Below, piece after piece: positions 2,515-41,788 of a stretch of 42,135 bases of DNA (position 1 is its first letter; every line of letters begins with the position of its first letter). This DNA comes from a virus. The stretch lies in IMG/VR virus record IMGVR_UViG_3300027759_000160, positions 1 through 42,135 of that record, one strand, 5' to 3'. Made by a program: the position numbers and the translations under genes. Under the pieces are notes generated by a model. That model was not told where the DNA came from, made no database searches, and saw only the letters and a program-made list of their open reading frames with translations.

Positions 2515-3483
2515 TTAGGCGTTGTTTGTGCCAATGCTTGAAGCGGTTTCGATACGACGAAGAGCTTCCTGACGGAAGATTCCGTAACCAACGAAGTGCT
2601 TCCAACCAACTGGCTGATGGCGCTTAAGAACGTCAGTGACGACTCCGTAAACCATCGTTGGCTGTGAACCGTATTCACCGTTGTTTGAAACAGCCTTTGC
2701 AAGAGCCTGACGGCCCATGATCAAAGTACCGTAAGCATCACCGGTTCCGGCAGCTCCTGAACCGTTGAATGCGTTTGCAAACAGAGGCGCACGTGGCGAC
2801 TCCATAAAGCGAACACCTTCAAACATACCGATTTCACCGTTGTAAATGCCCTCAGGATTTACGTAGTTAGCAGGGGTACGCCATGCGGATGCGTCAGTTG
2901 CACTACGGAAGTCGTAGGAAACGTCAGGATGGATGAAACCAACATACGAACCACCAATGGTAGGTACGTTTGCGCCACGCAACTGAGCAACTGTACGACG
3001 AACGTCGTTAGCTGTGAGTGTGTCATCAACGCTCAATGTCAAACGGGATGTAGCAACTGTTGCTCCACCTGATCCGTAAGAAACGTTTGTACCAGCCTGG
3101 AGGACTGAACGACAAACGCTGTCAATTGATATACCAGCGTTGTAACCAACAGCGTTAGCTGCTACTGGGTCAACGTTGATGAATGAAGTTGCACGGAGCT
3201 TGGCGGTTGTGACCATTGCGTTTCCATATTCCTGCATGGTGACAGAAACTTGGCTGTTGCTCAAAGCAACAGGGGTTACGTCAACAGTTTCGCTGATTGC
3301 CGAATCGGCTACAGCGAGGTCCTGGAAGATAGTGAACGTGTGGGTTGCACCTGGGGTAGTTGCATTTGATGCTTCGACTTCAGCGAACTGGTCAAAGTAC
3401 ATCTCTGGACGAAGAGCGTAGTACGCCAACTTCTCGAATGCTGTTTGGTTGAGGGATAGGGATGAGACTTGGGTATAAGCCAT
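2515..3483 (-). CDS. Major capsid protein, N4-gp56-like family, copy 1
   Basis: The 322-residue protein has features I associate with the N4-gp56-like HK97-fold capsid family: an N-terminal ALRPEMYFDQFA block, a central VGYNAGISID segment, RGANVPTIGG then YVGFIHPDVSYDFR, and the block GEIGMFEGVRFMESPRAPLF. The C-terminus ends FRQEALRRIETASSIGTNNA. It follows the scaffold gene by about 30 bases and is followed by a terminator, the usual layout for a strongly expressed capsid gene. The second MCP at 40805-41788 keeps all these blocks but differs at many positions. Confidence in capsid identity is high; the family name is from motif recall. Confidence 0.92.
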   Translation of the reverse strand: MAYTQVSSLSLNQTAFEKLAYYALRPEMYFDQFAEVEASNATTPGATHTFTIFQDLAVADSAISETVDVTPVALSNSQVSVTMQEYGNAMVTTAKLRATSFINVDPVAANAVGYNAGISIDSVCRSVLQAGTNVSYGSGGATVATSRLTLSVDDTLTANDVRRTVAQLRGANVPTIGGSYVGFIHPDVSYDFRSATDASAWRTPANYVNPEGIYNGEIGMFEGVRFMESPRAPLFANAFNGSGAAGTGDAYGTLIMGRQALAKAVSNNGEYGSQPTMVYGVVTDVLKRHQPVGWKHFVGYGIFRQEALRRIETASSIGTNNA

Positions 3484-21652: not shown

Positions 21653-21982
21653 TCAAGGATTTCGGGCAACATATTCGCTTACCCAATCTCGATATGGGAA
21701 TTCGGATTCCAGGATTACGCGTTGCCTGGGAGTTTTGCCTCCGAAAAGACCGAACCTTCTCCAGGTTGTTCGTTCATGATGCATGGCAAAGGCAAGGCAT
21801 TGTGTAGCTACTGTGCAGCCGTTGCAGATTTTGATTCCTTCGTCGTAGCACCGGGGGCTAGATAGTTGTTCTGTCTCTGGGAAGAAAACACTCATCGCTG
21901 CTTTTGTGCAGTTCGCCCTTTCTTGCCAGTTGACCGTGGTGAACTCGTTGTTTTTCGATGTTGGTGACATATGCATTCGCAT
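21653..21982 (-). CDS. whiB: WhiB-like iron-sulfur transcription regulator
   Basis: The protein has the WhiB signature: ANCTKAAMSVFFPE with the first Cys, then CNGC and CLAFA giving C-x27-C-x2-C-x5-C for a 4Fe-4S cluster, and the GLFGGKTPRQR turn matching the family's G-[V/I]-WGG block. WhiB proteins are confined to actinobacteria and their phages and act by binding the primary sigma factor. This marks the host phylum. Three ATGs (21982, 21976, 21970) could start it; none has a strong ribosome binding site. It lies downstream of a Cys-rich gene whose end overlaps its start region. Confidence 0.9.
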   Translation of the reverse strand: MRMHMSPTSKNNEFTTVNWQERANCTKAAMSVFFPETEQLSSPRCYDEGIKICNGCTVATQCLAFAMHHERTTWRRFGLFGGKTPRQRVILESEFPYRDWVSEYVARNP

Positions 21983-22086
21983 TCTTTGTGTACTTCAATG
22001 GGCCAGTTAGTTAATGCACGTGCGATAGTTCCGCAGTGTGTGCAATCAGGGTGCGCTCGGCTAAATTGCCACAGTTCAGAGGTCAT
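21892..22086 (-). CDS. Cys/His-rich small protein overlapping the WhiB start
   Basis: A 64-residue frame starting MTSELWQFSRAHPDCTHCG, with CTHC and ECECICHQH clusters fit for zinc, and a basic tail (SSPRSTGKKGRTAQKQR). Its start overlaps the methyltransferase stop by 11 bases, while its basic tail overlaps the WhiB coding region by about 80-90 bases in another frame. The metal-binding pattern argues that it is real; the long overlap argues for caution. No family is recognised. Confidence 0.5.
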   Translation of the reverse strand: MTSELWQFSRAHPDCTHCGTIARALTNWPIEVHKECECICHQHRKTTSSPRSTGKKGRTAQKQR

Positions 22087-23716
22087 TGTGAGCGTCATAG
22101 AGATGTCGTCCTATGAACTCGGCCACTGGTGAGGCAACACCGTTTCCGCACATCTTGTAGCGGGTTGTGTCGCTGTTTAATGTGCCATCAGCACGGTGCA
22201 GTGTGTGGTTGTCAGGCCATCCCATCAGGCGTTCGCATTCAATTGGGGTTAGCCGGCGCACAACCATGTCAGCTAGGACACCTGTTGATTGTTTTGTTCC
22301 TGCGCGCAACGCTTGATGGATGTTTCCACCGAGAGAATCGTTGTATTCATCGTAAGCTTCAACCGCTAGATGTTCTCCTGTCGCTACTCCAGGTATGAAT
22401 GACCCAGTGATGGTGTGAGATGGTTCTCCATCTTTTCCTATTCCTAACCCTTGCCGATTGACTGCATCATATTTGTCGGGATCTCGTAGCGCATTTCTTG
22501 TGTCAATAGGAATAGCTTCAACGACTAGGTGTTCTCCTCGAGATGACGGCACTCCACCATCTCCACCTGAACGAAGCGTAGGTGCGATATCTGTTTCTAC
22601 GATTAACGATTCTGATCCTCCACCTAGGTCACCACCATTGGCTCGTAAAGTACCTACTCCTTCTTGGTAAGACGCAAAAGATGAGGGTGTGTAGGCAACT
22701 GCATGTCCAGCTCCACCGACACGCAATGTTGGGAAAGCTATCTCGGACGGTTGAGCATCAAGACCTTGGGTATGCGAAAATCCAATTGGGTTATCTAATG
22801 GCTGAAATAAAACCTGGTCATTGCCTCCAGCAAGTGTTAATGATGTTTCAGATAACAGAGGACCTTTGCCACCTCCAGGTTTTCCTTCTCGCTGTCTCAT
22901 CAGGATTGGAGAATCATCGGTGGCAATGATAGGAACATTGTTCCCTCCTGTACCCATACGAGCTTTCAATGTTTGCACTGGTGATTCATAGATACGCACA
23001 TCATCTACACGTGTACCATCAATTAGCAGTGGCTCTATGTCGGTGGGTTCGCTACATGTTCCAAAGCTTGTTGCAAGCGGGGTGGAAGAGTTTTTCCCCG
23101 TCTTGATGCGCGACGTAGAATTCCTTCTGCGGCCTTCGCTGATAGGTAGAATTTCTTTCCCACCTCTGTTGAGGATTGCAGAATCGAAGCAAGCGATGAC
23201 GAACACTCGTCTACGCCGTTGGGGGACTCCGAAGAACTGCGCATCCACGCAGTGCCATTCGACGTGATGACCCCCGATGTCAACCATTTCTTGGATGACT
23301 GCCTCAAGGTCGTCACCGTTGTTACTGCTGAAGGCTCCTGGGACATTTTCCCAGATAGCCCATTTTGGGAAAACATTTCCAGTTGCATTTCTCATCTCCT
23401 TGATGATTCGTGTTGCCTCAAAAAAGAGGTTTGAACGAGAGCCGTTCATAAGGCCAGCTCTTTTGCCGGCGAGTGATAGGTCTTGGCATGGTGAGCCAAA
23501 AGTGATTAGGTCTACTGGTGGCATTTCATCACCTTTAACGTCTGAGACATCTCCCCAGCGTGGGACGTAAGGCCAGTGGTAGGCAAGTGTCTGCTGGCAG
23601 TGTTTATCCCATTCAACTTGGAATTTGCAGTCCCAGTTTGCTTTGTCGAATCCGATATCGATTCCTCCTACGCCAGCGAAGAGGCTGCCGTAGGTTGGGT
23701 TCCCTTTGTTACTCAT
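22076..23716 (-). CDS. DNA cytosine-5 methyltransferase with a repeat-rich variable region
   Basis: The 546-residue protein has the C5-methyltransferase motifs: GSLFAGVGGIDIGF (motif I, residues 10-23), FGSPCQDLS (motif IV, catalytic Cys-77), WENVPG (motif VI, 122-127), QRRRRVFVIA (motif VIII, 166-175) and the final CGNGVASPVAEFIG (motif X, 523-536). Between VIII and IX lies an unusually long stretch (about 180-488) with seven degenerate TL/TI/AL-plus-Gly-rich units, for example VQTLKARMGTGGNNVPII and APTLRSGGDGG. Target recognition domains contain such TL motifs. It probably methylates phage DNA against host restriction. It overlaps the SSB stop (TAATG). Confidence 0.92.
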   Translation of the reverse strand: MSNKGNPTYGSLFAGVGGIDIGFDKANWDCKFQVEWDKHCQQTLAYHWPYVPRWGDVSDVKGDEMPPVDLITFGSPCQDLSLAGKRAGLMNGSRSNLFFEATRIIKEMRNATGNVFPKWAIWENVPGAFSSNNGDDLEAVIQEMVDIGGHHVEWHCVDAQFFGVPQRRRRVFVIACFDSAILNRGGKEILPISEGRRRNSTSRIKTGKNSSTPLATSFGTCSEPTDIEPLLIDGTRVDDVRIYESPVQTLKARMGTGGNNVPIIATDDSPILMRQREGKPGGGKGPLLSETSLTLAGGNDQVLFQPLDNPIGFSHTQGLDAQPSEIAFPTLRVGGAGHAVAYTPSSFASYQEGVGTLRANGGDLGGGSESLIVETDIAPTLRSGGDGGVPSSRGEHLVVEAIPIDTRNALRDPDKYDAVNRQGLGIGKDGEPSHTITGSFIPGVATGEHLAVEAYDEYNDSLGGNIHQALRAGTKQSTGVLADMVVRRLTPIECERLMGWPDNHTLHRADGTLNSDTTRYKMCGNGVASPVAEFIGRHLYDAHNDL

Positions 23717-38669: not shown

Positions 38670-39004
38670 CAGATAGTACGGTCCCAACCCGTGATAGTCA
38701 CAGTCACCTTAGAAGCCGTATCCGACAACCCCTGCACAGTCTCCGTAGCCTCCAACACCAAACCCGTATCCAACACAACCGTGTCGTAACCAGCAACCGG
38801 CAAGTTATATGTGAAGCAGTTAGCCGCAGTAGCAGCTGAACCACGAGCCAACGTAATCAACCTGTCAACCCCGTCAGTGTTGCAAATCACAATCTGCTTA
38901 ATTGTGTACTGATGCGACGCAGGCACCGTAAACAAAGTCGTCGTTGTAGTACCCACCTGCGTAGGGACAGTCAACATTTTTGGGAATACATCACCACTAG
39001 CCAT
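38669..39004 (-). CDS. 111-residue virion-module protein, complete copy
   Basis: The protein starts [20 protein letters not shown] and is beta-rich (TTLFTVPASHQYTIKQIVIC, KVTVTITGWDRTI). Small proteins with this VPASHQYTIKQIV-like pattern occur among phage fibre or attachment genes. It overlaps the collagen-like gene by TAATG and the first fibre paralogue by ATGA. The window's left edge holds the first 15 codons of a second copy. Function unknown. Confidence 0.65.
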   Translation of the reverse strand: MASGDVFPKMLTVPTQVGTTTTTLFTVPASHQYTIKQIVICNTDGVDRLITLARGSAATAANCFTYNLPVAGYDTVVLDTGLVLEATETVQGLSDTASKVTVTITGWDRTI

Positions 39005-39060
39005 TAGAACTCCATGTTCATCATTGTGTAAGTCATTAGATTACTTGTTGTTTGTGTTGG
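38982..39060. repeat. 79-base exact repeat, right copy
   Basis: Partner of 23-101. On its left the window continues into the 111-residue gene and fibre genes, on its right into the second collagen-like array. The surroundings diverge quickly into repeat-rich sequence on the right. Confidence 0.95.
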
Positions 39061-39858
39061 GGCAGACGGTCCAGTCGCACCAGTAGGTCCAGTCGCACCA
39101 GTAGGTCCTGTTACTGTCGAAGCTGCACCTGTTGATCCTGTTGGACCAGTAGGTCCAGTTGCACCGTTTGCACCTGCTGCACCTGTTGAACCAGTCGGTC
39201 CTGTGGCTCCGTCAACACCAATGATTCCGTTCGTACCAGCAGGACCAGTCGGACCTGTCGGTCCTGTGACTGTGCTGGCTGCACCTGTTGCCCCTGTGGG
39301 TCCAGTCGGACCAGTGGGTCCCGTAACCGTAGATGCTGCACCTACAGAACCCGTAGCACCTGTTGGACCAGTAGGTCCCGTTACTGTGCTTGCTGCTCCC
39401 ACTGCACCTGTTGGTCCAGTCGGACCCGTAACGGTAGACGCTGCGCCTGTAGCACCCGTAGGACCAGTAGGTCCTGTGACTGTGGAAGCGGCTCCAGTAG
39501 GTCCAGTAGGTCCTGTGACTCCTTGCGCCCCTGTAGGACCAGTCACCGTACTTGCAGCACCCGTAGGACCAGTAGGTCCCGTAGGACCAGTCACCGTAGA
39601 ATTAGCACCAGTCGCTCCTGTAGGACCCGTAACAGTCGATGCGGCACCTGTCGGACCAGTAGGACCTGTAATACCCTGTGATCCCGTAGGACCAGTAGGA
39701 CCAGTAACACCTTGTGCGCCTGTAGCACCAGTCGGACCAGTCGGACCAGTAGCCCCCTGTGGACCAGCAGCAGAAGAACCAACAACCGTAATAGATGCAG
39801 AAGTAGTTAACCCAACAGTCGTAGAACCACGAACAACCTCAACGTCTGTAGTAGCCAT
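39004..39858 (-). CDS. Collagen-like tail fibre/appendage protein, copy 2
   Basis: The 284-residue protein starts [20 protein letters not shown], then a collagen-like array ([23 protein letters not shown] units) and the same C-terminus as copy 1 ([20 protein letters not shown]). The ATG at 39858 follows the BppU-like stop after two bases. The array is shorter than in copy 1 and ordered differently. The 3' 79 bases are identical in both copies. Fibre role as for copy 1. Confidence 0.85.
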
Positions 39859-39860
39859 CG

Positions 39861-40199
39861 TTACCGAGTCACATCGGCAAGAACCGTGACAGTCCCAGAC
39901 AGAATAGTAGAAATAACACCCGAAGCGTTCTCTTGCAAATCCCAATAAAGAAAGCCAGGATCAAGAGCCGCAGTGCCGGTAGCACTGAACGTGGCGGTCA
40001 GCTTGCCGTTTGGACCATCAGTTACAGCACATGTACCTGTGATGCTGATAGCAGAAATATCTGGGGTGGTGCGCATCTGGGATGTGTAGGTACGACCCGT
40101 GATGTTGACAGCTGTGCCATCTTCATCAACCATTGTCACCACAACGGTTTCCGTATCACCACGAGTGATAATTAAATCTTGTTTTGCAGGTGCAGCCAT
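39861..40199 (-). CDS. BppU-like N-terminal-domain protein, copy 2
   Basis: The 112-residue protein starts [20 protein letters not shown] and ends [13 protein letters not shown]. It matches copy 1 (1241-1579) over its whole length with many substitutions, including the shared [25 protein letters not shown] blocks. It probably adapts the collagen-like fibre to the virion. Confidence 0.7.
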
Positions 40200-40804: not shown

Positions 40805-41788
40805 TTAGGAGTTGTTTGTACCAATGCTTGAAGCAGATTCGATGCGACGCAAAGCTTCCTGACGGAATACTGCGTAACCAACGAAATGCTTCCAACCAAC
40901 TGGGCGGAAACGCTTCAGAAGGTCTGTAACTGTTCCGTACACGATTGTTGGCTGGTCGCCATACTCGCCACCCATTGAGACAGCCTTGGCAAGAGCCTGT
41001 TGTCCCATGATGAGGGTTCCGTATGAGTCACCAGTACCAGCGGCACCTGCACCGTTGTAAGCGTTTGTGAACAGAGGCGCACGAGGCGACTCCATGAAAC
41101 GAACGCCTTCAAACATACCAATTTCACCGTTGTAAAGAGGCATTGCGTTGGTGTACTTGTATGAGTCACGCCAACCAGATGCGTCTGTAATACCACGAAG
41201 GTCGTACGATACGTCTGGGTGGATGAAACCGACATAGTTGCCACCGATTGTTGGAACGTTAGCTCCACGCAATTCAGCCACTGCACGACGAACATCTTTA
41301 GCGGTAAGCGTCTGGTCGGTCTTCATCGTGATACGGCTAGAAGCGGTTTGCGCTCCACCCGTTGCGTAAATCACGTTTGTACCAGCCTGGATGGCACTAC
41401 GAGCGATGGTGTCAATTGACAAACCAGCGTTGTAACCAACAGCCTGAGCAGCTACTGGATCCACAGGGAGGAACGATGATGCACGGAGCTTAGCGGTAGT
41501 AACAGTTGCGTTACCATATTCTTCAAGGGTTACAGTAACTTGGCTGTCGCTCATTGAGACAGGGGTTACATCCTCAGCTTCACCGAGTGGCGTTGTAGCC
41601 GCTGCGAGATCTGCGAATACGGTGAACTTCACTGAAGCACCTGGGTTGGTAGCGTTTGTAGCTTGAACAGATGCGAACTGGTCAAAGTACATTTCTGGGC
41701 GAAGGGCAAAATATGCCAACTTCTCAAAAGCTACTTGGTCTGTAGACAAGCTTGCGGTGCTTATCTCATTGGCGTAATAATCAGCCAT
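40805..41788 (-). CDS. Major capsid protein, N4-gp56-like family, copy 2
   Basis: The 327-residue protein starts MADYYANEISTASLSTDQVA and keeps the blocks ALRPEMYFDQFA, VGYNAGLSID, RGANVPTIGG, YVGFIHPDVSYDLR, GEIGMFEGVRFMESPRAPLF and the end ASSIGTNNS. Against copy 1 it is roughly 70 percent identical by eye, with differences spread over the N-terminal arm and variable loops. It is complete and shows no stop or frameshift, so it should work as a capsid protein. It is preceded by a scaffold gene and followed by its own terminator. Confidence 0.92.
   Translation of the reverse strand: MADYYANEISTASLSTDQVAFEKLAYFALRPEMYFDQFASVQATNATNPGASVKFTVFADLAAATTPLGEAEDVTPVSMSDSQVTVTLEEYGNATVTTAKLRASSFLPVDPVAAQAVGYNAGLSIDTIARSAIQAGTNVIYATGGAQTASSRITMKTDQTLTAKDVRRAVAELRGANVPTIGGNYVGFIHPDVSYDLRGITDASGWRDSYKYTNAMPLYNGEIGMFEGVRFMESPRAPLFTNAYNGAGAAGTGDSYGTLIMGQQALAKAVSMGGEYGDQPTIVYGTVTDLLKRFRPVGWKHFVGYAVFRQEALRRIESASSIGTNNS

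Follow-up and report, generated by a model that had tools for sequence, protein, structure and literature searches.

Does a DNA methyltransferase that carries seven units between its conserved motifs VIII and IX recognize one target sequence or several? The question is raised by a gene at positions 22076–23716, on the minus strand, of a 42,135-base stretch of viral DNA, which comprises one entire virus record (IMGVR_UViG_3300027759_000160, here G000) and is referred to as the window. A sequence-only reading of this gene had proposed a multispecific enzyme, and comparison with related viral proteins supports this proposal. With a probability of about 0.78, we consider the window enzyme to be an orphan, multispecific C5-cytosine DNA methyltransferase whose array consists of seven alternative modules for target recognition, placed in tandem.

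Catalytic core and the units between motifs VIII and IX

The gene starts with an ATG at 23716 and, judged by its sequence, its 546 aa product (P0001) is a C5-cytosine DNA methyltransferase with intact motifs. PF00145 was matched with an E-value of 1.7e-56 in two stretches on either side of the array and phrog_116 with an E-value of 6.5e-84, and PADLOC calls the protein an orphan methyltransferase (PDLC03715). Motifs I, IV (PC), VI (ENV), VIII (QxRxR), IX and X are all present in the order known for the class. The N-terminal catalytic half (residues 8–172, 23201–23695; all coordinates within this gene refer to the minus strand) contains motifs I–VIII (FAGVGG, SPCQ, ENV, QRRRR), aligns to residues 16–173 of M.HhaI and is predicted with a local distance difference test score (pLDDT) of mostly 80–95. 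The C-terminal motifs IX and X (residues 486–546, 22079–22261) align to M.HhaI 262–318. Motif VIII reads PQRRRRVF at about residue 165 and motif IX reads RRLTPIECERLMGW from residue 487 onward; the intervening stretch, put at about 300 residues beforehand, measures 314.

All seven units proposed for this stretch were found at residues 249, 293, 330, 356, 380, 435 and 470, the TL-like site being TI in unit G (435) and AL in unit H (470). Within the single sequence, the similarity around TL is not clearly beyond chance (best seven-window score 91; shuffled sequences with a mean of −49 and a maximum of 173), owing to the degeneracy of the units. It is the comparison with relatives which settles that the units are real. 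For each unit type, a profile was made from which the window protein and its five closest relatives had been left out (leave-out hidden Markov model); these profiles matched all seven units with 58–77 bits (independent E-values 2e-20 to 2e-26), whereas 200 shuffled arrays gave no more than 8.6 bits. From the N-terminal side, these are module B, the commonest type (residues 231–264, LIDGTRVDDVRIYESPVQTLKARMGTGGNNVPII; 22925–23026, 77.3 bits), module C (residues 270–305; 22802–22909, 71.2 bits), module D (residues 310–342; 22691–22789, 76.5 bits), module E (residues 342–374; 22595–22693, 71.1 bits), module F (residues 375–400; 22517–22594, 58.1 bits), module G (residues 402–446; 22379–22513, 75.8 bits) and module H (residues 454–483; 22268–22357, 69.7 bits). 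Module G is in addition distantly similar to two types absent from the window, I (12.6 bits) and J (8.6 bits), over the same stretch. Kinship between types was assessed with a generic unit profile lacking the type in question; units B, D, E, F and G scored beyond the 95th percentile of shuffles, and sequence kinship is therefore shown for five of the seven units. When phages were searched by tblastn with the array alone, nothing matched at 1e-5, a result probably due to the shortness and low complexity of the units.

A pool of modules shared among relatives

The units of the window recur as discrete cassettes of about 26–45 aa in 57 non-redundant viral proteins which contain both flanking motifs and were taken from two viral scans. 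Most of their arrays could be tiled with about 24 module types seeded by hand, yielding 283 modules in 49 distinct arrays with 2–10 modules each. The order is BCDEFGH in the window, NEBDHFGJ in L004, OECBDIRTF in L035 and EFBIH in L043; other relatives have QBCDGIEFH or OEMBDIJHF, and L036 has B alone. Among the 80 type pairs which co-occur in at least four distinct arrays, both orders were observed for 32. Different arrays are also found on catalytic halves which are 97–99% identical (e.g., QMKBLGHZF in L054 and NSBLJTX in L066), and the similarity of module sets correlates weakly with backbone identity (Spearman 0.19). Between motifs VIII and IX, several discrete modules resembling target-recognition domains (TRDs) are thus permuted, and each is acquired or lost as a whole. 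Members of the pool occur in the bifunctional Dmt protein of phage P1 (N), Pasteurella phage Pm86 (E, B, J), Akkermansia phage Chantilly (B, J), Pectobacterium phage MA12 (N, V, I) and Streptococcus phage Javan105 (B) as well. As a side observation, the methyltransferase is split into two open reading frames (ORFs) within or near the array in L020, L023, L024, L026, L028, L037, L042, L045 and others, sometimes overlapping in different frames, and it is annotated as adjacent genes in the mycobacteriophages Bombitas and Lucky2013.

No array contains the same type twice. When modules were shuffled among arrays 10,000 times, 43.7 duplicates were expected on average and at least 27 were always found, whereas the 49 distinct arrays contain none. 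A check independent of type labels gave the same picture: at a normalized score of at least 0.5, a second copy was found in the own array for 0 of 316 modules, but in one random other array for 90 of 316.

It might be argued that only one or two modules, such as the near-universal B, act as TRD and that the others are either relics or spare cassettes stored for future recombination. Type B is indeed present in 45 of the 49 distinct arrays and suffices on its own in L036; L158, L161 and L103, on the other hand, manage without it. Moreover, relics would decay, whereas modules shared between the window and L001–L003 have 88% amino acid identity at only 37% identity of four-fold degenerate sites and are therefore under purifying selection, with synonymous sites near saturation. 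In module F, for instance, all 26 amino acids are identical to those of L001, while 8 of 20 four-fold sites are alike. We regard this alternative as improbable.

Probable recognition modules and multiple specificities

The smallest relative allows a comparison with an enzyme having a single TRD. With its one unit, L036 is 341 aa long (M.HhaI: 327 aa), and its AlphaFold2 model resembles M.HhaI in fold (Foldseek E-value 2e-18, TM score about 0.6). Its TL is located at residues 251–252, 23 residues before motif IX (274). By motif alignment, Thr250 of M.HhaI lies about 22 residues before motif IX. When a module profile was aligned directly to the HhaI TRD, HMMER aligned the flanking motifs only. 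M.HhaI and M.HaeIII resemble the window enzyme in catalytic core and motifs IX–X but have a single TRD, located between motifs VIII and IX in M.HhaI, where the window enzyme has seven modules.

A second link leads to the methyltransferase MtbP of phage SPbeta, which has two units before motif IX; its second TRD (residues 349–372) matches type J of the pool with 25 bits (9e-9). Tandem TRDs giving multiple specificities have been reported for Bacillus phages (PMC8936443, PMC12707154). The enzymes of this kind (SPbeta/phi3T, SPR, rho11s, H2 and M.(phi)BssHII) share with the window protein the single core, several short tandem TRDs (putative ones in the window protein) between motifs VIII and IX and probably the status of an orphan phage enzyme. 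While the known multispecific enzymes of Bacillus phages carry about two to five TRDs, there are seven modules in the window and up to ten in its relatives, taken from a pool comprising 24 types or more which are permuted between phages. The window enzyme would best be read as a variant of the Bacillus-phage enzymes that is larger and combinatorial. Recognition domains shifting position within one gene are also known from the domain movement (DOMO) of Type I HsdS subunits (PMC3077401). However, DOMO involves two positions flanked by DNA repeats, whereas the arrays described here have many positions and the window gene contains no repeated 11-mers.

The independent, exchangeable and non-redundant behavior of the units, the M.HhaI-like size of the one-unit relative and the similarity of type J to the second SPbeta TRD all support the multispecific enzyme suggested by the sequence-only reading. 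In such an enzyme, one catalytic core (motifs I–VIII plus IX–X) would carry seven alternative recognition modules of about 26–45 aa. The single-TRD geometry of M.HhaI and L036, together with the SPbeta match, suggests that the modules would engage DNA one by one, each in the reading position which the single TRD holds in M.HhaI, and that the set of modules would define several methylated motifs. We infer that each module is likely active with a target sequence of its own. By methylating several short sequences, one enzyme could hide the phage DNA from several restriction enzymes, and the purpose would probably be anti-restriction, i.e., masking viral DNA from several host restriction enzymes. 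The arrays themselves would evolve as whole modules, drawn from a pool common to many phages, are gained, lost or put in a different order. Sites for typical C5 specificities (GGCC, GCGC, CCGG, GCNGC) are not clearly depleted in the window, which fits protection but proves nothing. In contrast, CTGCAG, the PstI site, occurs once where about 13 occurrences are expected; this scarcity suggests avoidance of a restriction system which the methyltransferase does not block.

Some observations weigh against a multispecific enzyme. AlphaFold2, applied to the whole window protein (alignment of 20 sequences) and to L036, predicted the catalytic core well but gave pLDDT values below 50 for the array and also for the single unit of L036. 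Modules C and H show no detectable kinship to other types with the generic profile, not exceeding the 95th percentile of shuffles. The type matching SPbeta, J, is not present in the window, whose unit G is weakly J/I-like. Lastly, the absence of duplicates, which selection for distinct specificities would produce, could also come from deletion between duplicated DNA copies.

The missing confident fold and the Gly/Ser-rich low-complexity stretches would agree with an array which is a non-specific DNA-binding or structural insert tethering the enzyme, its units having no part in specificity. Neither type-specific conservation nor exclusion of duplicates is expected of a tether, and type J is homologous to a TRD of SPbeta, so that we consider this explanation very improbable. 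The main alternative, recombinational loss, attacks only one support of the favored reading and overlaps with it, as the enzyme might still be multispecific if non-redundancy were a by-product of losing duplicated DNA rather than a result of selection for specificity. Identical DNA in duplicate is generally unstable. Nevertheless, diverged copies of the same type, e.g., the subtypes of B, have little DNA in common, so that recombination between them would not come easily, yet they are never combined in tiled arrays. Loss by recombination as the cause of non-redundancy is possible but rather unlikely in our view, though less so than an array of relics.

If each module of a multispecific methyltransferase stands for one site, a code linking modules to sequences could be learned for cytosine methylation, and the restriction systems evaded by a phage would be predictable from its sequence. 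The modules would inform the study of multispecific methyltransferases, and the lack of duplicates combined with differing arrays on near-identical backbones would make restriction pressure readable in natural phage communities.

A nested reading frame and the remaining record

The catalytic half of the methyltransferase gene contains a second ORF in the +1 frame (117 aa, 23035–23388), predicted to encode a separate product from an ATG preceded by the Shine-Dalgarno sequence AAGGAG. In all 57 relatives the +1 frame remains open over 100 codons or more, whereas the +2 frame does so in 2 of 57. Upon synonymous codon shuffling, the +1 frame acquired 3.5 stops on average, and its median probability of staying open was 0.013. 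In most relatives the ATG follows a purine-rich Shine-Dalgarno-like stretch, part of which doubles as coding sequence for the conserved main-frame residues IIKEM. A C-terminal signature beginning xxLSxKAxxGIL is common to all 57 relatives. Over the same nucleotides, mean identity is 0.56 in the +1 frame but 0.32 in the main frame, with the +1 frame being higher in 99.8% of pairs; the respective values are 0.48 and 0.25 for the window compared to P1 dmt, and 0.57 and 0.12 compared to Rctr41k. Main-frame four-fold sites have an identity of 0.80 after motif VIII, compared to 0.34 in the catalytic part outside the nested ORF. A general claim that synonymous sites diverge faster in the modules than in the catalytic half was rejected, as the nested ORF constrains much of the catalytic half and four-fold identity over all pairs is 0.34 in the modules and 0.34 in the non-overlapped catalytic part.

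Conservation of the nested ORF within methyltransferase genes extends from phage P1 to the mycobacteriophages. The ORF was matched in 124 phage records and in 527 plasmid records, the latter mostly from E. coli and consistent with P1-type phage-plasmids, and its signature is present in 40 of 80 bacterial loci. Among the matches listed, most have either the methyltransferase or a hypothetical protein annotated at the site, or no feature at all, and text searches of the literature found no description of this ORF. P1 Dmt has, like the window protein, a C5 core with a pool module (type N, 60 bits) and the nested +1-frame ORF; it differs in its fused adenine-methyltransferase part, and its C5 activity is only presumed in the record. 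The methyltransferase gene of SPbeta was also checked and, unlike the window gene, has no such ORF. Based on this conservation, the nested ORF is probably an undescribed, translated overlapping gene and may be more novel than the module array. If translated, it would represent a gene family which has escaped notice even in phage P1. We lean slightly toward the combined view that a deck of at least 24 cassettes is re-dealt without duplicates, giving 7–10 specificities per enzyme, and that a conserved +1-frame overlapping gene accompanies the enzyme from P1 to actinophages, with a product which may work together with the methyltransferase or DNA modification, or regulate either of them.

The methyltransferase gene directly follows an SSB gene, and genes for WhiB, YqaJ and GP88 are near. 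No restriction endonuclease was found among the neighbors checked (SSB, WhiB, YqaJ exonuclease, GP88 and others without Pfam match), which cover part of the ORFs. The WhiB transcription factor gene is located just downstream (21653–21982, minus strand, E-value 3.8e-12), and the host is therefore probably an actinobacterium. Farther away, two paralogous capsid-like proteins with 73% identity are encoded on the minus strand at 2515–3483 and 40805–41788. A collagen-like protein with GPTG repeats and a protein of 112 aa are encoded near each capsid-like gene (45–1579 and 39004–40199); the record thus has a structural block in duplicate, one copy close to either end.
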